NCBI GenBank assembly: GCA_017458005.1
Contig: JAFTGH010000017.1
Coordinates: 62,001 to 126,000 of the forward strand
Length of the DNA: 64,000 nucleotides
From: Prevotella sp.
GTDB taxonomy: Bacteria; Bacteroidota; Bacteroidia; Bacteroidales; Bacteroidaceae
Direction of reading: 5' to 3'
Of the stretch, positions 8,023 to 40,696 are shown piece after piece. The position numbers were made by a program, and so were the translations under genes. Every line of letters begins with the position of its first letter. Position 1 is the stretch's first letter. The notes under the pieces were generated by a model. That model did not search any database and had not been told where the DNA came from. It worked only from the letters and a program-made list of their open reading frames with translations.

Positions 8023-9678
8023 TTAAAAAAAGTACAGTTTTACGTGCAAAATCTTCCATTCTCCGACTGAGATACGGGCATGACGACCTTGGTGGTCCTG
8101 GTCGCCATTATGCCGTCGGACATATATAATATGTCCGTTTTCGTCAATCGTCACCTCATCGACAAAGCCAATTCCGACCCGTTTCCCGTTGAAATGGGCA
8201 TTTTTTGAATTTTCAGCCTTTTTTGTAGCACCTTCTGCCACAAATCCGTCCTCGCCAAGCACTTTCTCTTCCTCACGCTCCTTCTCATAGGCGGAGGCGA
8301 AATTGACCACGACACCACTGCCTGCGACAAGATACTCGTCGTCGGCAAGTCTCTGGATGATGGCACCACCCTCCTGCCAGACGGAGCCGTCGGTGGCACG
8401 AGGATCCCATGGCAACGTGAAGTAATGGCGACAAGTCAGGACGAGATCACCCTCACGGATGACCCGCTCCTTGTCTTGCTGGTCGAAGAGAAGACCGTAG
8501 GATGGTTGACGGCTGAGGGATGAGGGGAGATGGGAGAGTTGGCGGATGAGGTCGTAAGCCTTTGTGACACTCTCCGTCTCCCGAGGAGAAGCCTGGTCGA
8601 TGGCGAAGGGGGAGAAGCCCAGGGCGTGGTGCTCACCAAAAGCATAGAGCGCACGGACACCACTGTTCTCACAGCAACGGCTCTCGGGGATAAACAGGCG
8701 GTTGTTGGACAGCGCATACTGGTCAGCCCATCCCTTGAAACCCGTGTCATAGATGTCGGGTGCCAGCATGGCAAGTTGGGGGGCTCCCGCATGCCAGAGG
8801 TCGATGAGATGGGCTAAAGGTCCTGCGGAGGGATATTGTCCTGGCTGCCTCCCCCTACTGTTCATCGCCGCATTGACATACAAGGGTATCTGCGTGTGTT
8901 TGCGTGCCGTCTCGCAGAACCTGCCCACATATCTCGCATAATAGTATGCCATGAAAATCTCATCGGTGTAGATGTCATCCCCGAAGAGGGAAGTCCAGGA
9001 TTGGTTGGCGGTGAGCGATGAGCGATGAGCGTCCATCCGTTGTTTGAGCCAAGGATGCAGTTCCCGCTGATGTTTCTTCAGGTAGTTGGTCAGTTCCTGT
9101 GGAACGCCTTTTTTGTAGATTTCATCGGCAAGTTTCGAGTGGTCACGGGCAGACTCCAGCATTCCGATCTCGTTCTCCACCTGTATCATGCTGACCACGT
9201 CCTGCCCTACTGCTACGATATGCTTCACCAATGTCTCAAAGGCACGGTTGTCTGCCTGGAACACATTCTCCGAGAACGCACTGGCTATCTCCAAGGGCTT
9301 GCCCTCTGCGGTACAGGCACGGGGGAAACGCTTTGTGTCTTTCTTAAACCATAGCGGGGCGTAGCACGACATGGAGTTTTTCCATGCGCCAAACCACAGG
9401 AACACGATCTTCAAGTCGTTCTCCCTTGCCCGCTGGATAGTACGGTCGATGAGGGTAAAGTCAAACTTCCCCTCCTCGGGCTCCAGAAACTCCCAATAGG
9501 CAGGTACCAAGACGGTGTTCAGCCCTAAGGTCCTCATACGGGGTATCACCTCGTCGACATCCGCCACAGAGGTAACAGCCGAGTTGCTTAACTCCCCACC
9601 AAGGATGATGGGAGTGTCCTGTGCTTGCAGTCCCAAGGCTGCAAACCATGCTATGATTAATATTTTTATCCGTTTCAT
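8023..9678 (-). CDS. GH35-like beta-galactosidase (DUF5597 type)
   Basis: This is a secreted glycoside hydrolase of 551 residues with a signal peptide ending near LGLQAQ. The TIM-barrel opens with GLNTVLVPAYWEFLEPEEG, as in GH35. The likely acid/base is Glu170 in QVENEIG and the likely nucleophile Glu332 in FIPESR. GH35 enzymes remove terminal beta-galactose. In xylan loci such enzymes probably remove galactose from side chains; that role is inferred from the adjacent GH67. The gene begins 28 nt after GH67 ends, so the two are probably one transcript. The last residues (HVKLYFF) are reached through a region of low similarity to known domains. Confidence 0.85.
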   Translation of the reverse strand: MKRIKILIIAWFAALGLQAQDTPIILGGELSNSAVTSVADVDEVIPRMRTLGLNTVLVPAYWEFLEPEEGKFDFTLIDRTIQRARENDLKIVFLWFGAWKNSMSCYAPLWFKKDTKRFPRACTAEGKPLEIASAFSENVFQADNRAFETLVKHIVAVGQDVVSMIQVENEIGMLESARDHSKLADEIYKKGVPQELTNYLKKHQRELHPWLKQRMDAHRSSLTANQSWTSLFGDDIYTDEIFMAYYYARYVGRFCETARKHTQIPLYVNAAMNSRGRQPGQYPSAGPLAHLIDLWHAGAPQLAMLAPDIYDTGFKGWADQYALSNNRLFIPESRCCENSGVRALYAFGEHHALGFSPFAIDQASPRETESVTKAYDLIRQLSHLPSSLSRQPSYGLLFDQQDKERVIREGDLVLTCRHYFTLPWDPRATDGSVWQEGGAIIQRLADDEYLVAGSGVVVNFASAYEKEREEEKVLGEDGFVAEGATKKAENSKNAHFNGKRVGIGFVDEVTIDENGHIIYVRRHNGDQDHQGRHARISVGEWKILHVKLYFF

Positions 9679-30995: not shown

Positions 30996-31022
30996 AATCG
31001 TTTAGAATTATAATTGAAAATA

Positions 31023-31165
31023 GGCGGAACCATTCGATACTTATCAAGTGTCTGGTTACCGCCAAGTGACCAATCGCAAACAAGCACGAATAGTCCACGC
31101 CTTATTAAGCGTGAACCTTTATCTGCTTGTTCTTTGCGATGAATGTTTGGCGGTATTCGACACTT
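31023..31165. repeat. Structured element with mutually exclusive hairpins
   Basis: GGCGG-AACC-GATACTT (31023-31042) pairs with AAGTGTC-GGTT-CCGCC (31046-31063) around a 3-nt loop. The same segment can instead pair with TTGGCGGT and GACACTT at 31147-31165, closing a larger hairpin. Inside it ATCGCAA/TTGCGAT, CAAGCA/TGCTTG and CACGC/GCGTG stack in register. The element lies 28 nt upstream of the lipoprotein ATG on the minus strand. It looks like an attenuator, a structured RNA or a small palindromic mobile element. Confidence 0.55.
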
Positions 31166-31435
31166 AAGAACAAGAGCAAAAGCCCAAAATCTTATATAAT
31201 AAGTACGAACAGAAACGCTATTCTGTAAGTTAATAATTAATTGTTTATTAATCTCTCTGTGACCTTGTGAGGCTGAGCCTCAGCGATGGGGTCGGTTAGC
31301 GTTTTCTTCGTTTCTATGTCATCGGCATCTTTTTTAAGGGTTTAACTTTGTGTTAACTATGATTTCTGTCTGCAAATATACAAAATAATTTAAATTAACA
31401 GGCAAAGTATCAGGAAAAGTTGTAATTTTGCAGCG
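31166..31435. other. Gene-free stretch upstream of the structured element
   Basis: No gene was seen. It holds short palindromes (ACAGAA/TTCTGT near 31210-31230 and GAGGCT/AGCCTC near 31269-31281), a minus-strand TATATTTG at 31373-31380 that could drive the lipoprotein leader, and a plus-strand TAATTTTG at 31423-31430 that once may have served the transposase remnant. Confidence 0.45.
31373..31380 (-). promoter_or_regulatory. Candidate -7 box TATATTTG for the lipoprotein leader
   Basis: It is identical to the -7 box of fic, including the flanking TTTTG before and CAG after. Transcription from here would run through the structured element into the lipoprotein gene. Confidence 0.35.
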
Positions 31436-31594
31436 TTAAACATTAAACAATAAGTCAACTATGAGATGATGCCTGATCATCTGCATGCTATTCTCTTTGT
31501 GAAGGAAAGGTTGGAGAAGCCGTTGGGGAAGGTGCTGCTGGGGGTGAAGCAGGCTTGTAACCAGGTGTTTAGGGAGGTGATGCCAGAGGCTTTT

Positions 31595-31613
31595 GTTGCT
31601 GTGGCACAGCAAC
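31595..31613. repeat. 19-bp REP-like palindrome, copy 1
   Basis: GTTGCTGTGGCACAGCAAC is a perfect 9+1+9 palindrome within the transposase remnant. Copies 3 and 4 in mnmG are identical apart from the central base, and copy 2 has a compensated pair change. Confidence 0.75.
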
Positions 31614-31684
31614 ATGCTGAACAACGAGGGCGGCGGCATGCTGAACAACGAGGGCGGAGGCATGCTAGACAACGAGGGCGGCGG
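31613..31684 (+). repeat. Three 24-bp tandem repeats
   Basis: Three units of 24 bp start at 31613, 31637 and 31661 with CATGCT and end in GAGGGCGG(C/A)GG. They differ at only a few bases. In the transposase frame each encodes HAEQRGRR or HARQRGRR. The copies begin at the last base of the palindrome. Confidence 0.8.
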
Positions 31685-31697
31685 CGATTGGGACAAA

Positions 31698-31735
31698 TAA
31701 AAAATAGCGCCACAGGAAAGACCTGCGGCGCTATT
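31698..31735 (-). terminator. Rho-independent terminator of the sdh operon
   Basis: AATAGCGCC and CAGG pair with CCTG and GGCGCTATT around a 5-nt loop (one mismatch). On the minus strand a T-rich run follows. It lies about 20 nt after the sdhB stop. Confidence 0.8.
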
Positions 31736-31756
31736 ATTATAGATAAGGTGTAGTCC

Positions 31757-32515
31757 TTAGTCGGCAAGTTTTGCCTTGATCATCTCACGGTTGAGGCGAG
31801 CGATATTGCTGATGGTCTCGTTCTTCGGACATACTGCCTCACAAGCACGGGTGTTGGTGCAGTTACCAAAGCCGAGTTCATCCATCTTGGCAATCATGTT
31901 CTTCACACGACGGGCAGCCTCTACACGACCCTGAGGAAGCAGGGCGAGTTGAGAAACCTTAGATGATACGAAGAGCATGGCAGAGCCGTTCTTACAAGCG
32001 GCAACGCAAGCGCCACAGCCAATGCAAGAAGCGCAGTCCATCGCCTCGTCGGCATCCTCCTTAGGAATCAGGATAGCGTTGGCATCCTGAGCCTGACCTG
32101 TGCGGATGGTGGTATAGCCACCAGCCTGGATGATCTTATCGAAAGCGTTGCGGTCTACCATACAGTCCTTGATAACAGGGAATGCGGCAGAGCGCCAAGG
32201 CTCCACAGTGATCACGTCGCCATCGTTGAAGCGGCGCATGTAGAGTTGACAGGTAGTAGCACCACGCTCTGTCTTACCATGAGGTGTACCGTTGATATAC
32301 AGAGAGCACATACCGCAGATACCCTCGCGGCAGTCATGGTCGAATACGAAAGGCTCCTTGCCCTCGTTGATGAGTTCCTCGTTGAGGATATCCAGCATCT
32401 CGAGGAATGAGGTGTCATCGGGGATATCATGCATTTCGTGCGTATCGAAATGACCCTGGTCCTTGGGGCCGTTCTGGCGCCAGAACTTTATTGTAAAACT
32501 TATATTTTTAGCCAT
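31757..32515 (-). CDS. sdhB: Succinate dehydrogenase/fumarate reductase iron-sulfur subunit
   Basis: This subunit passes electrons between the flavoprotein and the quinone site at the inner membrane. The 252-residue protein has the [2Fe-2S] motif [12 protein letters not shown], the [4Fe-4S] motif [14 protein letters not shown] and the later cluster ligands in [13 protein letters not shown]. In Prevotella the complex usually works as fumarate reductase, making succinate, but it is often annotated sdh; direction cannot be told here. It is the last gene of the sdhCAB operon and is followed by a strong terminator. Confidence 0.97.
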
Positions 32516-32531
32516 AATTCAACTTATTAGG

Positions 32532-32550
32532 GGTGCTGTGACACAGCACC
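32532..32550. repeat. 19-bp REP-like palindrome, copy 2 (compensated variant)
   Basis: GGTGCTGTGACACAGCACC lies between sdhA and sdhB. Compared with the other copies the second base pair is G-C instead of T-A, so both arms changed together and the palindrome is kept. Confidence 0.7.
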
Positions 32551-32560
32551 ATACTTCACA

Positions 32561-34540
32561 TTAGTTCTTATAATTACGGGTTTGTACTTTAATTGCCTCA
32601 TACTCCAGTGGCTCCTTGATCAACTCAGGCTCGTTACCCTTGCCTTTGTACTCCCAGCAGCCTACATAGAAGTAGTTCTCGTCGTCGCGCTTAGCCTCGC
32701 CTTCCTCTGTCTGGTACTCCTCGCGGAAGTGACCACCACAGGACTCGTTACGAGAGAGAGCGTCGAAAGCAACGAGTTGACCCATCGTGAAGAAGTCACG
32801 GAGGTGGATTGCCTTGTCGAGTTCGATATTCAGACCCTCCTTCGTTCCAGGAACGAACAGGTTGGTGTCGAACTCCTTCTCCAGTTCGTGCATCTTCTTC
32901 AGACCAGTCTTCAAGCCCTCGGCGGTGCGACCCATACCAACATACTCCCACATGATATGTCCGAGTTCCTTATGGATAGAGTCAACAGAACGCTTACCCT
33001 TGATATTCATGAGACGGTCCATCTCAGCATCCACTGCCTTCTCTGCCTCAGCGAACTCGGGCAGGTCGGTGCTTACCTTAGGCCATACAGCCTGGTCGGC
33101 AAGGTAGTTCTGGATAGTGTAAGGCAGCACGAAGTAACCATCGGCAAGACCCTGCATCAACGCAGAGGCACCCAGACGGTTAGCACCATGGTCAGAGAAG
33201 TTACACTCACCAATAGCGAACAGTCCAGGAATCGTGGTCTGCAACTCATAGTCTACCCAGATACCACCCATTGTATAGTGGATAGCAGGATAGATCATCA
33301 TGGGCTTATAATACTTCACGCCATTGATCTCGTTAGCAACATCGCCGGGGAATACGTCAGTAATCTCCTCGTACATCTCAAAGAGGTTGCCATAACGCTG
33401 CATGATGACATCGATACCCAGACGGTTGATAGACTCCGAGAAGTCGAGGAATACGGCAAGACCTGTGTTGTTCACACCAAAACCCTTGTCGCAACGCTCC
33501 TTGGCAGCACGAGAGGCGACATCACGAGGAACGAGGTTACCGAATGCGGGATAGCGACGCTCCAGATAGTAGTCGCGATCCTCCTCAGGAATCTCCCAGC
33601 CCTGCTTGGTGCCCTGCTGCAATGCCTTGGCATCCTCAATCTTCTTAGGAACCCAGATACGGCCATCGTTACGCAGCGACTCAGACATCAGCGTCAGCTT
33701 AGACTGCTTGTCGCCATGAACGGGGATACAGGTGGGGTGAATCTGCACGTAAGAGGGGTTGGCAAAATAAGCACCCTTACGATAGCACTGAACGGCTGCG
33801 GTGCAGTTACATCCCATCGCATTGGTAGAGAGGAAGTAAGTGTTTCCATAACCACCAGTAGCGATAACGACTGCATTGGCAGAGAAACGCTCCAACTTAC
33901 CTGTAGTCAGGTCCTTGGCGATGATACCACGGGCACGACCGTCAACGATGACTACATCCTCCATCTCATAACGAGTGTAGAGTTTCACCTTACCAGCCTT
34001 CACCTGCGCACTCAGAGAAGAGTAGGCACCCAGCAGCAACTGCTGACCCGTCTGACCCTTAGCATAGAACGTACGGCTTACCTGTGCGCCACCGAATGAG
34101 CGGTTGGCAAGCATACCACCATACTCACGAGCAAAGGGAACACCCTGAGCCACACACTGGTCGATGATATTATTACTTACCTCGGCAAGACGATAAACGT
34201 TCGCCTCACGAGCACGATAGTCACCACCCTTCACGGTGTCGTAGAACAGACGGTAGATAGAGTCACCATCATTCTGATAACACTTGGCGGCGTTGATACC
34301 ACCCTGAGCGGCGATAGAGTGAGCACGACGTGGAGAGTCCTGAATACACAGGTTAATCACGTTGAAGCCCATCTCACCCAGAGAGGCAGCGGCAGAAGCA
34401 CCAGCAAGACCAGTACCTACCACGATGACATCGAGTTTCAGTTTGTTCTTTGGGTTAACCAAACGCTGATGAGCCTTATATTCCTTCCATTTCTCAGGTA
34501 CTGGACCTGCGGGAATCTTTGAATCTAATACTTTAGCCAT
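32561..34540 (-). CDS. sdhA: Succinate dehydrogenase/fumarate reductase flavoprotein subunit
   Basis: This subunit holds covalent FAD and the dicarboxylate site. The 659-residue protein has the dinucleotide fold [21 protein letters not shown], the flavinylation region [13 protein letters not shown], and the substrate-site segments HPTCIPVHG and the late [12 protein letters not shown]. The length fits the group that pairs with a one-piece cytochrome b subunit. The stop of sdhA and the start of sdhB are 45 nt apart, and that gap is partly filled by a REP-like palindrome. The Ala-rich start [13 protein letters not shown] is normal for Bacteroidota members. Confidence 0.97.
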
Positions 34541-36124: not shown

Positions 36125-38044
36125 ATGATTCTGAAATACGACGTATTAGTCATTGGAGGAGGTCATGCTGGTTGTGAGGCTGCTTGTGCCTCTGCCAACA
36201 TGGGAGCGAAGACCTGTCTGGTGACAATGGACATGAACAAGATTGCACAAATGTCGTGCAATCCTGCCGTGGGTGGCATTGCCAAAGGACAGATTGTGCG
36301 AGAGATAGATGCCCTGGGAGGACAGATGGGACTGGTAACAGATGCCACGGCAATCCAGTTCCGTATGCTGAACCGCAGCAAAGGTCCTGCTATGTGGAGC
36401 CCTCGTGCCCAGTGTGATCGTGGGAAGTTTATCTGGCAATGGCGTACCACTCTCGACCATACAGATAACTTGGATATTTGGCAGGACCAAGCAGACGAAC
36501 TACTAGTAGAGGATGTTGCTGTGCCACAGCAACACACCAAGCAGGTGGTGGGTGTGAAGACCATCTGGGGGGTAGAACTCAGGGCAAAGGCGGTGATCAT
36601 CACAGCAGGAACTTTCCTCAACGGACTGATGCATATCGGACGAAAGATGATTCCTGGAGGACGTATCGCAGAACCTGCCGTCCCACATTTCACAGAGAGT
36701 ATCACCCGCCATGGCATCCGCTCCGAGCGAATGAAGACAGGCACCCCTGTCCGCATCGACAAACGCTCTGTCCATTTCGAGGATTTAGAGATACAAGAGG
36801 GAGAGCATGATTTCCATCAGTTCTCCTATATGGGTAAGCATCGCATCTTACCCCAACTGACCTGTTGGACCTGTAATACCAATGCCGCTGTCCATGAGAC
36901 ATTACGCTCTGGACTGAAAGACTCCCCACTCTACAATGGACAGATACAGTCGATTGGACCACGCTATTGTCCTTCGATAGAAACGAAACTTGTCACTTTC
37001 CCAGACAGGGAGCAACACCCCCTTTTCTTGGAGCCAGAGGGAACGGACACCAATGAGATGTACCTGAATGGTTTCTCGTCCTCACTCCCTATGGAGGTAC
37101 AGATAGCCGCCTTAAAGCATATCCCTGCCTTCAGAGACCTTAAAGTATATCGACCTGGCTATGCCATCGAATATGATTTCTTCGATCCTACCCAACTGAA
37201 ACATACGTTGGAATCGAAAATTATCTCTGGTTTGTTTATGGCTGGACAGGTAAATGGTACCACTGGCTATGAGGAGGCTGGAGGACAAGGGACTTTGGCA
37301 GGTATTAATGCGGCATTATTTGCTGGGGCGGGTGGTTGCTGTGGCACAGCAACACACAAAACCTTTATCCTTCATCGGGATGAGGCATACATTGGCGTGC
37401 TGATTGATGACCTTGTGACAAAGGGGGTAGATGAGCCCTACCGTATGTTCACCTCCCGAGCCGAGTATCGCATCCTTCTAAGACAAGACGACGCGGATGC
37501 CCGACTGACTGAGAAAGCATACCAACTGGGTGTTGCCAAAAAAGACCGTTACGACTGGTGGATGGAGAAGAAACAATTTATCGAAGAAATCGAGAACTTC
37601 TGCAAGACTTTCCCCATTAAGCCTAAAGTCATTAATGGTGCTTTGGAAGCCTTAGGCTCTACCCCACTCGTCTATGGCTGTAAACTGGAGGACCTGGTGG
37701 CACGCCCAGAGTTGAATTTCGAGAAACTGCAAGATGTCATTCCAGAACTTAAGGAAATCCTAAACTGCCCTTCTCAGCGAAAAGAAGAAATCGCAGAGGC
37801 GGCAGAGCTACATATCAAATACAAGGGATATATAGAACGTGAACGCATCGTTGCTGACAAGATGCACCGTCTGGAGAATATCAGAATCAAAGGGCACTTC
37901 AACTACAACGAGATGCAACAACTCAGTACGGAGGCACGACAGAAATTGACAGCAATTGATCCCGAAACACTCGCTCAAGCAAGCAGAATACCTGGCGTAT
38001 CACCAAGTGATATCAACGTGATGCTAGTGCTGATGGGGAGGTGA
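36125..38044 (+). CDS. mnmG: tRNA uridine-34 carboxymethylaminomethyl modification enzyme MnmG
   Basis: MnmG with MnmE modifies the wobble uridine of several tRNAs using FAD. The 639-residue protein has the FAD motif VLVIGGGHAGCEAA, the conserved NPAVGGIAKGQIVREIDALGG, and DEPYRMFTSRAEYRILLRQDDAD. Two 19-bp palindromes sit inside the coding sequence. They encode VAVPQQH (residues 131-137) and GCCGTATH (404-411), where the E. coli protein, as I recall it, is about 8 residues shorter in each place. Both fall in loops between conserved blocks and keep the frame, so the protein is probably active. Confidence 0.97.
   Translation: MILKYDVLVIGGGHAGCEAACASANMGAKTCLVTMDMNKIAQMSCNPAVGGIAKGQIVREIDALGGQMGLVTDATAIQFRMLNRSKGPAMWSPRAQCDRGKFIWQWRTTLDHTDNLDIWQDQADELLVEDVAVPQQHTKQVVGVKTIWGVELRAKAVIITAGTFLNGLMHIGRKMIPGGRIAEPAVPHFTESITRHGIRSERMKTGTPVRIDKRSVHFEDLEIQEGEHDFHQFSYMGKHRILPQLTCWTCNTNAAVHETLRSGLKDSPLYNGQIQSIGPRYCPSIETKLVTFPDREQHPLFLEPEGTDTNEMYLNGFSSSLPMEVQIAALKHIPAFRDLKVYRPGYAIEYDFFDPTQLKHTLESKIISGLFMAGQVNGTTGYEEAGGQGTLAGINAALFAGAGGCCGTATHKTFILHRDEAYIGVLIDDLVTKGVDEPYRMFTSRAEYRILLRQDDADARLTEKAYQLGVAKKDRYDWWMEKKQFIEEIENFCKTFPIKPKVINGALEALGSTPLVYGCKLEDLVARPELNFEKLQDVIPELKEILNCPSQRKEEIAEAAELHIKYKGYIERERIVADKMHRLENIRIKGHFNYNEMQQLSTEARQKLTAIDPETLAQASRIPGVSPSDINVMLVLMGR
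36515..36533. repeat. 19-bp REP-like palindrome, copy 3, inside mnmG
   Basis: GTTGCTGTGCCACAGCAAC, followed by ACACC. It is in frame as V-A-V-P-Q-Q-H between LLVED and VVGVKT. Confidence 0.8.
37335..37353. repeat. 19-bp REP-like palindrome, copy 4, inside mnmG
   Basis: GTTGCTGTGGCACAGCAAC, followed by ACACA. It is read in a different phase from copy 3, giving G-C-C-G-T-A-T-H between NAALFAGAG and the conserved RDEAYIGVL. Confidence 0.8.
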
Positions 38045-40542: not shown

Positions 40543-40696
40543 GTAAATCAATTTGATTTATCGTGTAAATCAATTTAAATTACTCAGTAAATCAATTTGA
40601 TTTGCTTTGCAATTTAATTTAAATTGCAGAGTAATCTAATCTAAATTGCTTTGCAATCCTTATTAAATTGCAATGCAATCTAATCTAAATTGCAAT
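40543..40696. repeat. Array of seven 22-bp palindromic units
   Basis: Units start at 40543, 40565, 40587, 40609, 40631, 40653 and 40675, exactly 22 bp apart. Each is a 19-nt imperfect palindrome plus a 3-nt linker. Examples of the 19-mers are GTAAATCAATTTGATTTAT (unit 1), the perfect palindrome GCAATTTAATTTAAATTGC (unit 4) and GCAATCTAATCTAAATTGC (unit 7). The array fills the uvrC-dtd gap and is very AT-rich. The exact helical phasing resembles iterons, but binding is unknown. Confidence 0.85.

Follow-up and report, generated by a model that had tools for sequence, protein, structure and literature searches.

REP-like palindromes in frame within mnmG and other genes of a Prevotella genome, probably spread by a RAYT-type transposase family

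Why does a core tRNA-modification gene carry the same palindrome twice, in frame and read as two different peptides? The question arises in a 64,000-nucleotide stretch of a Prevotella genome (the window), where mnmG (gidA), an open frame of 639 codons on the forward strand (36125..38044) that solved MnmG chains match over nearly its full length, contains the 19-nt core GTTGCTGTG-N-CACAGCAAC at 36515-36533 (centre C) and at 37335-37353 (centre G). A preliminary description of the window had reported both copies, and we confirm their positions. The first is read VAVPQQ (phase A) and the second GCCGTAT (phase B), so that, as that description argued, shared protein sequence is not the cause. Its statement that E. 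coli MnmG is about eight residues shorter at each place also holds: in phmmer alignments eight query residues are unmatched at each site against two solved MnmG chains, one of which (3cp2) we take to be the E. coli protein.

The window contains four places with at most three mismatches to the core, compared with none expected from 100 dinucleotide shuffles. Across the whole genome (3.05 Mb in 66 contigs, 92% complete) the search that the preliminary description had proposed gave 9 exact copies and 19 places within two mismatches, whereas the reversed pattern used as a control gave 0 and 1; with the shuffles, this rejects chance as the origin of the copies. An alignment of 49 copies from this genome and its relatives, including near-matching copies and copies inside transposase genes, is conserved outwards to positions -9 and +9 and little beyond (G at -9 in 75 of 98 half-sites, T at -8 in 77, G at -4 in 87 and T at -1 in 78), so that the unit is about 37 nt and not 19. 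Its consensus, GTTCWGTNT-GTTGCTGTG-N-CACAGCAAC-ANACWGAAC, is an imperfect palindrome with a GT...AC foot, dispersed and within the 20-40 nt expected of a REP; the outer arm starts with GT at the frequencies just given, followed by the strong G at -4, and the strict GTAG is absent. In mnmG the 37-nt elements occupy 36506..36542 and 37326..37362. All four window copies fold as hairpins when treated as single strands (z -2.5 to -4.9; -3.4 and -2.5 for the first and second mnmG copies). Among the near matches in the genome, GTGGCTGTG, GCTGCTGTG, GTTGATGTG and GGTGCTGTG show paired changes in the two arms and others are altered in one arm only; the last of the four belongs to the window copy GGTGCTGTG-A-CACAGCACC at 32532-32550, which has two paired changes and is intergenic, between open frames 31757-32515 and 32561-34540, both on the reverse strand. 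Two further perfect inverted repeats in the window, at 8117-8137 and 40608-40628, are outside this palindrome family.

REPs are expected to be mostly extragenic, yet 16 of the 19 places fall within recognisable genes with long open frames, one in a transposase remnant and two in what we take to be intergenic DNA. The host genes are mnmG and purL (twice each), purM, ileS, thrC, proC, gltD and ugd, together with genes for a two-domain ABC ATPase, a TolC-type outer membrane protein, GH43 and GH31 proteins, an alpha-galacturonidase-like protein and a TonB-type barrel; several of these frames end at the edge of the fetched stretch. The insert lies between the two ATPase domains of the ABC protein (residue about 244) and between the two domains of the GH43 protein (residue about 354). 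Ten of the gene copies in this genome are read in phase A (VAVxQQ), six in phase B (xCCxTAT) and none in phase C. Thirty copies in frames of at least 200 codons in relatives give 16, 14 and 0, making 26, 20 and 0 in the pooled 46 gene copies, which are partly non-independent (some represent one site in two species) and include a few frames of relatives (L112, L122) that may be spurious. A shared protein motif as the cause is ruled out by the two reading phases. The count used the longest frame, which at L013 is an antisense frame with thrC on the opposite strand (the phase stays B), and it leaves out the copies inside transposase genes (all A), those just 3′ of such genes in frames of 69, 72 and 94 codons (two C and one A, the last two having been fetched twice) and one just 3′ of such a gene in a frame of 205 codons (B). 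By eye, phase B is read as CCC beside a hydrophobic stretch and further Cys/Ser residues in four relatives (L127, L134, L297 and L298), in L298 close after a start codon; these readings may be lipoprotein signals.

The preliminary description had proposed two 24-nt in-frame insertions. Over all 80 fetched MnmG relatives, site 1 measures 63 nt in 54 (87 in the window) and site 2 measures 48 nt in 57 (72 in the window), in each case exactly 24 nt less; the window's length is shared by seven relatives at site 1 and six at site 2, and the others have lengths between or beyond these, up to 255 and 144 nt. The segment is thus absent from most relatives, as proposed, but the loops are longer than the common form in 26 of 80 relatives at site 1 and 23 of 80 at site 2, which speaks in part against insertions peculiar to this genome. 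A first alignment, of 48 of the 80 relatives, gave biased counts because those beyond L062 are mainly of unusual length, and is superseded by the count over all 80. The inserts lie between conserved blocks, and relatives carry unrelated residues in the same places, which, judged from the alignment gaps, are probably loops. The nearest relatives in the MnmG search are rumen Prevotella-type metagenome assemblies (best 85% identity), and the host itself is presumably also of this type. G301, a close relative (98% MnmG identity), has kept the site 1 palindrome with another centre, and its site 2 palindrome is decayed, with paired arm changes (GTCGC...GCGAC); in G353 the site 1 insert is absent and the site 2 palindrome present, and in G119 site 1 is present and the site 2 palindrome absent.

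Other genes provide further empty sites. The best case is a pair of ugd paralogues on contig C45 (L293 and L294, at about 24 kb and 36 kb), one empty and one with the palindrome, which share 96.8% identity across the 931 nt preceding the site and 88.7% across the 336 nt following it; the occupied copy has a net gain of 39 nt, with some twenty surrounding bases replaced. The two purL sites are 24 and 21 nt longer than in a 94%-identical relative (G035), purM has eight residues more than a solved relative, ileS gains 3 nt over the common 84, and gltD and proC show about no net change against solved relatives in what are distant alignments. The empty sites and varying net sizes indicate that insertion is real, that its size is not fixed and that the target is often partly replaced; the events in ileS, gltD and proC look like replacement. 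No target duplication was identified at the insertion sites. A fixed 24-nt unit is accordingly dropped: the preliminary description's figure stands as the exact excess over the commonest mnmG form, and not as the size of the element (about 37 nt) or of the gain elsewhere.

What could have spread the palindrome is suggested by a second locus in the window. An exact copy at 31595-31613 lies inside a remnant on the forward strand (31454..31750) that is 72% identical over 58 residues (E 3e-28) to P0002, an intact transposase of the RAYT kind; the remnant has kept its HUH segment and lost its start and C-terminal half. G301 and G349 have an intact RAYT gene at the same place. The flanks of the G301 gene match the window at 31019-31463 (92%) and 31703-32401 (96%), the middle of the gene matches 31464-31630 (92%), and its 3′ palindrome additionally matches 31594-31638 (91%), the surroundings of the window copy thus matching both the internal and the 3′ palindromes of the intact gene. 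On the simplest reading of these alignments, a pair of deletions would have produced the remnant, one running from the internal to the 3′ palindrome. The protein encoded at 31757-32515, presumably the iron-sulfur subunit of succinate dehydrogenase or fumarate reductase, is identical at 248 of 251 residues to the neighbour of the intact G349 gene, and a neighbour of this type is present at at least 15 of 30 RAYT loci (a lower bound from short motifs). The remnant at the site of an intact gene, together with the shared neighbour, makes the RAYT look like an old resident of a fixed place that is broken in this genome. A protein query gave two RAYT matches in the genome, of which the other, at C27, has 50% identity and a different internal palindrome; no intact cognate RAYT was found in the 92% complete assembly. 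A Pfam search for Y1 transposases in this genome gave none, Pfam hardly detecting the family. Directly after the remnant's palindrome, at about 31613-31690, tandem GC-rich units of about 24 nt (such as atgctgaacaacgagggcggcggc) are visible by eye.

The frame that surrounds the palindrome in several relatives has about 340 codons and contains the motifs DHLH and YLKDNP; 230 of the 398 genomes of the genus have matches to its protein. A DxH pair and Y-L-x-D-N-P are invariant in alignments of 5 and 11 members, as expected of an HUH/tyrosine transposase. All of 11 RAYTs match NCBIfam NF047646 (REP-associated tyrosine transposase; best E 3.9e-11), although the one score shown, 39.5 bits, is below the curated cut-off of 80, and five proteins score 12.0-15.1 bits against PF01797 (Y1_Tnp; E 0.025-0.23), for which the cut-off is 23. 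The frames of the best 30 loci have 332-389 codons. An in-frame palindrome occupies one position between the HUH and Tyr motifs in 28 of these 30, and 16 of them have a second palindrome within 60 nt of the stop, so that the gene is flanked by its own REP on the 3′ side; at L162, the RAYT of G316, the palindrome inside is of the GTTGCTGTG type and that after the stop is TTTCGTCGTG-G-CACGACGAAA. The apex varies between RAYT groups (TGTG-N-CACA, TGTA.., GAC-NNN-GTC) and the base GTTGC...GCAAC is mostly constant. A conserved domain with the pattern GAVLVSPAISxGE follows the Tyr motif in L135, L140, L159 and others, a pattern that we find reminiscent of DprA-like folds. For this C-terminal part of about 125 residues, a Pfam scan of 15 members that admitted hits up to E 10 gave just two, at E 0.11 and 0.21, each in a single member, and searches of solved structures gave nothing below E 0.28 with this part and nothing significant with the RAYT profile.

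The exact palindrome is associated with the transposase. The exact 19-mer occurs in 61 of the 398 genomes (the control gave none among the matches listed): in 21 of the 24 with a full-length RAYT of at least 79% identity and in 40 of the 374 others, which include genomes with a partial close RAYT. When only copies away from the RAYT gene are counted, the first figure becomes 15 of 24, to be set against the 40 of 374 left uncorrected. The three exceptions among the 24 (G050, G277 and G117) have an altered palindrome in their RAYT. We also built a tree of 31 RAYTs without the palindrome residues, including the distant one of this genome; 29 of the 31 have an internal palindrome. On this tree the TGTG.CACA type requires 3 changes, compared with 8.0 for shuffled labels (0 of 500 shuffles as low), and all apex groups together require 7 compared with 8.8 (4 of 200 as low). 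Types other than TGTG.CACA are not clustered, so that the proposal that apex type follows the tree for every type holds for the main type alone.

A one-to-one match between type and transposase, with each RAYT's palindrome dispersed in its own genome, likewise failed for the rarer types. GTCGCTGTG is found only in or beside the RAYT gene in G117 and G277, and as single copies in G067, G195, G295, G051, G241 and G181, which have a standard RAYT, and three times in G248 (9 of 40 panel genomes overall); GTTGCTGTA is found only in or beside the RAYT gene in G001, G248 and G329, and in 5 of 40 panel genomes in all, including G051 and G195. The GAC-NNN-GTC type is present in 19 of 40 panel genomes, with up to 17 copies, and twice in this genome; one of the nine panel genomes without a RAYT match (G044) has it, in four copies with one control hit.

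Taken together, the palindromes are very probably REP elements (37-nt hairpins, each side ending in the GT...AC foot) that belong to a family dispersed by a RAYT-kind HUH/tyrosine transposase. TnpA-REP proteins cut single-stranded DNA at REPs, and from this activity and the linkage between palindrome and RAYT we infer that the hairpin is moved by a RAYT. By analogy, the transposase would nick the single-stranded hairpin at its foot and re-join it at a new site, the target probably being single-stranded at that moment, during replication. In-frame insertions would survive where a loop or linker tolerates them, and the third reading phase would be filtered out. Afterwards the hairpin might be kept symmetrical, be overwritten by another REP type or decay to an ordinary loop; upkeep by paired arm changes could come either from template switching at the hairpin or from renewed insertion. 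Because the cognate RAYT is broken in this genome, its copies are probably fossils. The mobile REP-like palindrome of the preliminary description is thus upheld as far as dispersal and carriage by a transposase family go, its movement being a deduction by analogy.

The palindromes could instead be fixed binding sites for a regulator or chromosome organiser, or an uptake-like signal, which are under selection as DNA and merely overlap genes. Consistent with this, the 18 arm positions equal those of the window at site 2 of L130 and L302 and at site 1 of L131, whereas in the rest of mnmG codons for the same residue agree at 47-53% of their third positions, a comparison biased for three of the five mnmG loci, since L120, L130 and L131 were picked for the exact 19-mer and L302 and L031 were not. 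Site 1 of L031 is, moreover, symmetrical through a paired change, and this variant has a single copy in its genome, beside three standard copies, so that it was probably altered in place. However, presence and absence vary between relatives at the same site (L130 lacks the site 1 insert and L131 the site 2 palindrome), an exact match is found in just those 61 of 398 genomes, and the palindrome is embedded in transposase genes with a varying apex; we consider binding sites unlikely. Alternatively, palindromes that never moved may have been created locally, as template switching acted on imperfect inverted repeats. This would account for the paired arm changes at L031 site 1 and G301 site 2, and the replacement-like events in ileS, gltD and proC fit local correction; it leaves unexplained the same 19-mer in unrelated genes and in a transposase gene, and the ugd paralogues look like a recent gain without an imperfect precursor. 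Template switching may well explain upkeep after insertion, but as the origin it is very improbable. The least credible reading is that the inserts are functional peptides selected as protein, for although phases A and B and never C are used in the 46 gene copies and the inserts lie between conserved blocks, one DNA gives two unrelated peptides in unrelated proteins, two copies are intergenic and relatives have unrelated residues in the same loops.

The REP reading places the family beside known systems. The RAYT/TnpA-REP subclass 2.4 is described as abundant in Cyanobacteria and Bacteroidetes (PMC6006769, 2018), and that paper reports double-foot REPs which TnpA-REP genes carry as in-frame insertions, usually located after HuH and before Y. 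The present family resembles subclass 2.4 in having a REP whose two ends are a GT foot and the complement of that foot, and an in-frame REP between HuH and Y (here at the 28 of 30 loci); it differs in its HUH motif (DHLH, not NH[IFV]H), its tyrosine motif (YLKDNP, not YIxNNP), its length (332-389 codons against a table value of 194, which we take to be length), its C-terminal residues, about 125 without a significant match to Pfam or a solved family, its outer arm (GTTCWG, not GT[AG]G) and the position of most copies inside genes. In-frame REPs have been described in many genes, most REPs being intergenic, in PMC3733652 (2013), where recB of two Xanthomonas species has REPs at roughly matching positions. 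Those GTAG/CGTC REPs likewise lie in frame in open reading frames, sometimes twice per gene, with hosts that include tRNA synthetase and tRNA-modification genes; they are mostly intergenic, unlike the 16 of 19 in genes here, and in several of the genes here a given loop is used by more than one kind of palindrome. Rickettsia palindromic elements (RPE), as described in that paper, are a further parallel, being palindromes in frame in likely functional proteins; the short intragenic R. conorii repeats RPE-4 and RPE-6 are equated there with CGTC repeats, whose table entry shows no link to transposase genes, and RPE-1 is longer.

The two papers together already cover the principle, and the preliminary description's view that a palindrome kept in a core gene is unusual stands with the qualification that in-frame REPs have been published (PMC3733652, PMC6006769). 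What is new here is that copies are mostly intragenic, that the same loops are reused and that the RAYT has other motifs and a longer, unassigned C-terminal domain. No title among the matches listed in a literature search that left preprints outside its scope concerned in-frame palindromes in Prevotella or other Bacteroidales, and the accessible part of a Porphyromonas repeat paper (PMC5771137) uses 'palindromic' for CRISPR alone. The case adds a lineage that is not one of obligate parasites and where selfish palindromes seem to supply new protein loops, and its empty sites, empty paralogue, recognisable transposase family and repeated loop use make the spread and symmetry upkeep of coding palindromes directly testable.

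The same loops contain different palindromes in different relatives. In mnmG, site 2 of L053 has the window's palindrome and that of L032 has GCGGTTGTG-G-CACAACCGC, and site 1 has TGTTGTTGTG-A-CACAACAACA in L031, TGTTGCCGT...ACGGCAACA in L041, GCCTGCGAT...ATCGCAGGC in L070 and, less surely (p 0.02), CCTGACGG...CCGTCAGG in L032. A palindrome test that demanded arms of at least 6 and a p value no higher than 0.01 relative to the gene's other segments is passed by 5 of 81 sequences at each site: at site 1 by the window, L031, L041, L070 and the insert-free L102, and at site 2 by the window, L032, L033, L053 and L093. An earlier run on 49 sequences had given 4 and 5. Most inserts are thus without an intact palindrome. 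With 26 and 23 of 80 relatives longer, some with other or decayed palindromes, the mnmG sites look old and reused. Elsewhere, ileS of the 92%-identical G035 has GCTGCGAC-CCT-GTCCCAGC, with one mispair and the same outer arm GTTCCGTCT, and purL site 2 of G022 has GTCGCGAT-AAA-ATCGCGAC followed by AAACTCAAC. One could tentatively suppose, although we hold it to be rather doubtful, that certain loops (two in mnmG, one in purL and one in ileS) serve as enduring docking sites into which REP types are repeatedly inserted, overwritten via the common foot and re-symmetrised; if so, these loops of core enzymes would be under continual rewriting by a selfish hairpin in many species. Site 1 of mnmG also shows other contents: L056, L070 and L101 have in-frame inserts of 210-255 nt (63 in the common form) rich in QTT, QQE or PSSAT-like repeats, and L102 has TGTTTCACGTGAAACA, which we take to be the canonical ParB binding site parS, at the insertion place without any insert.
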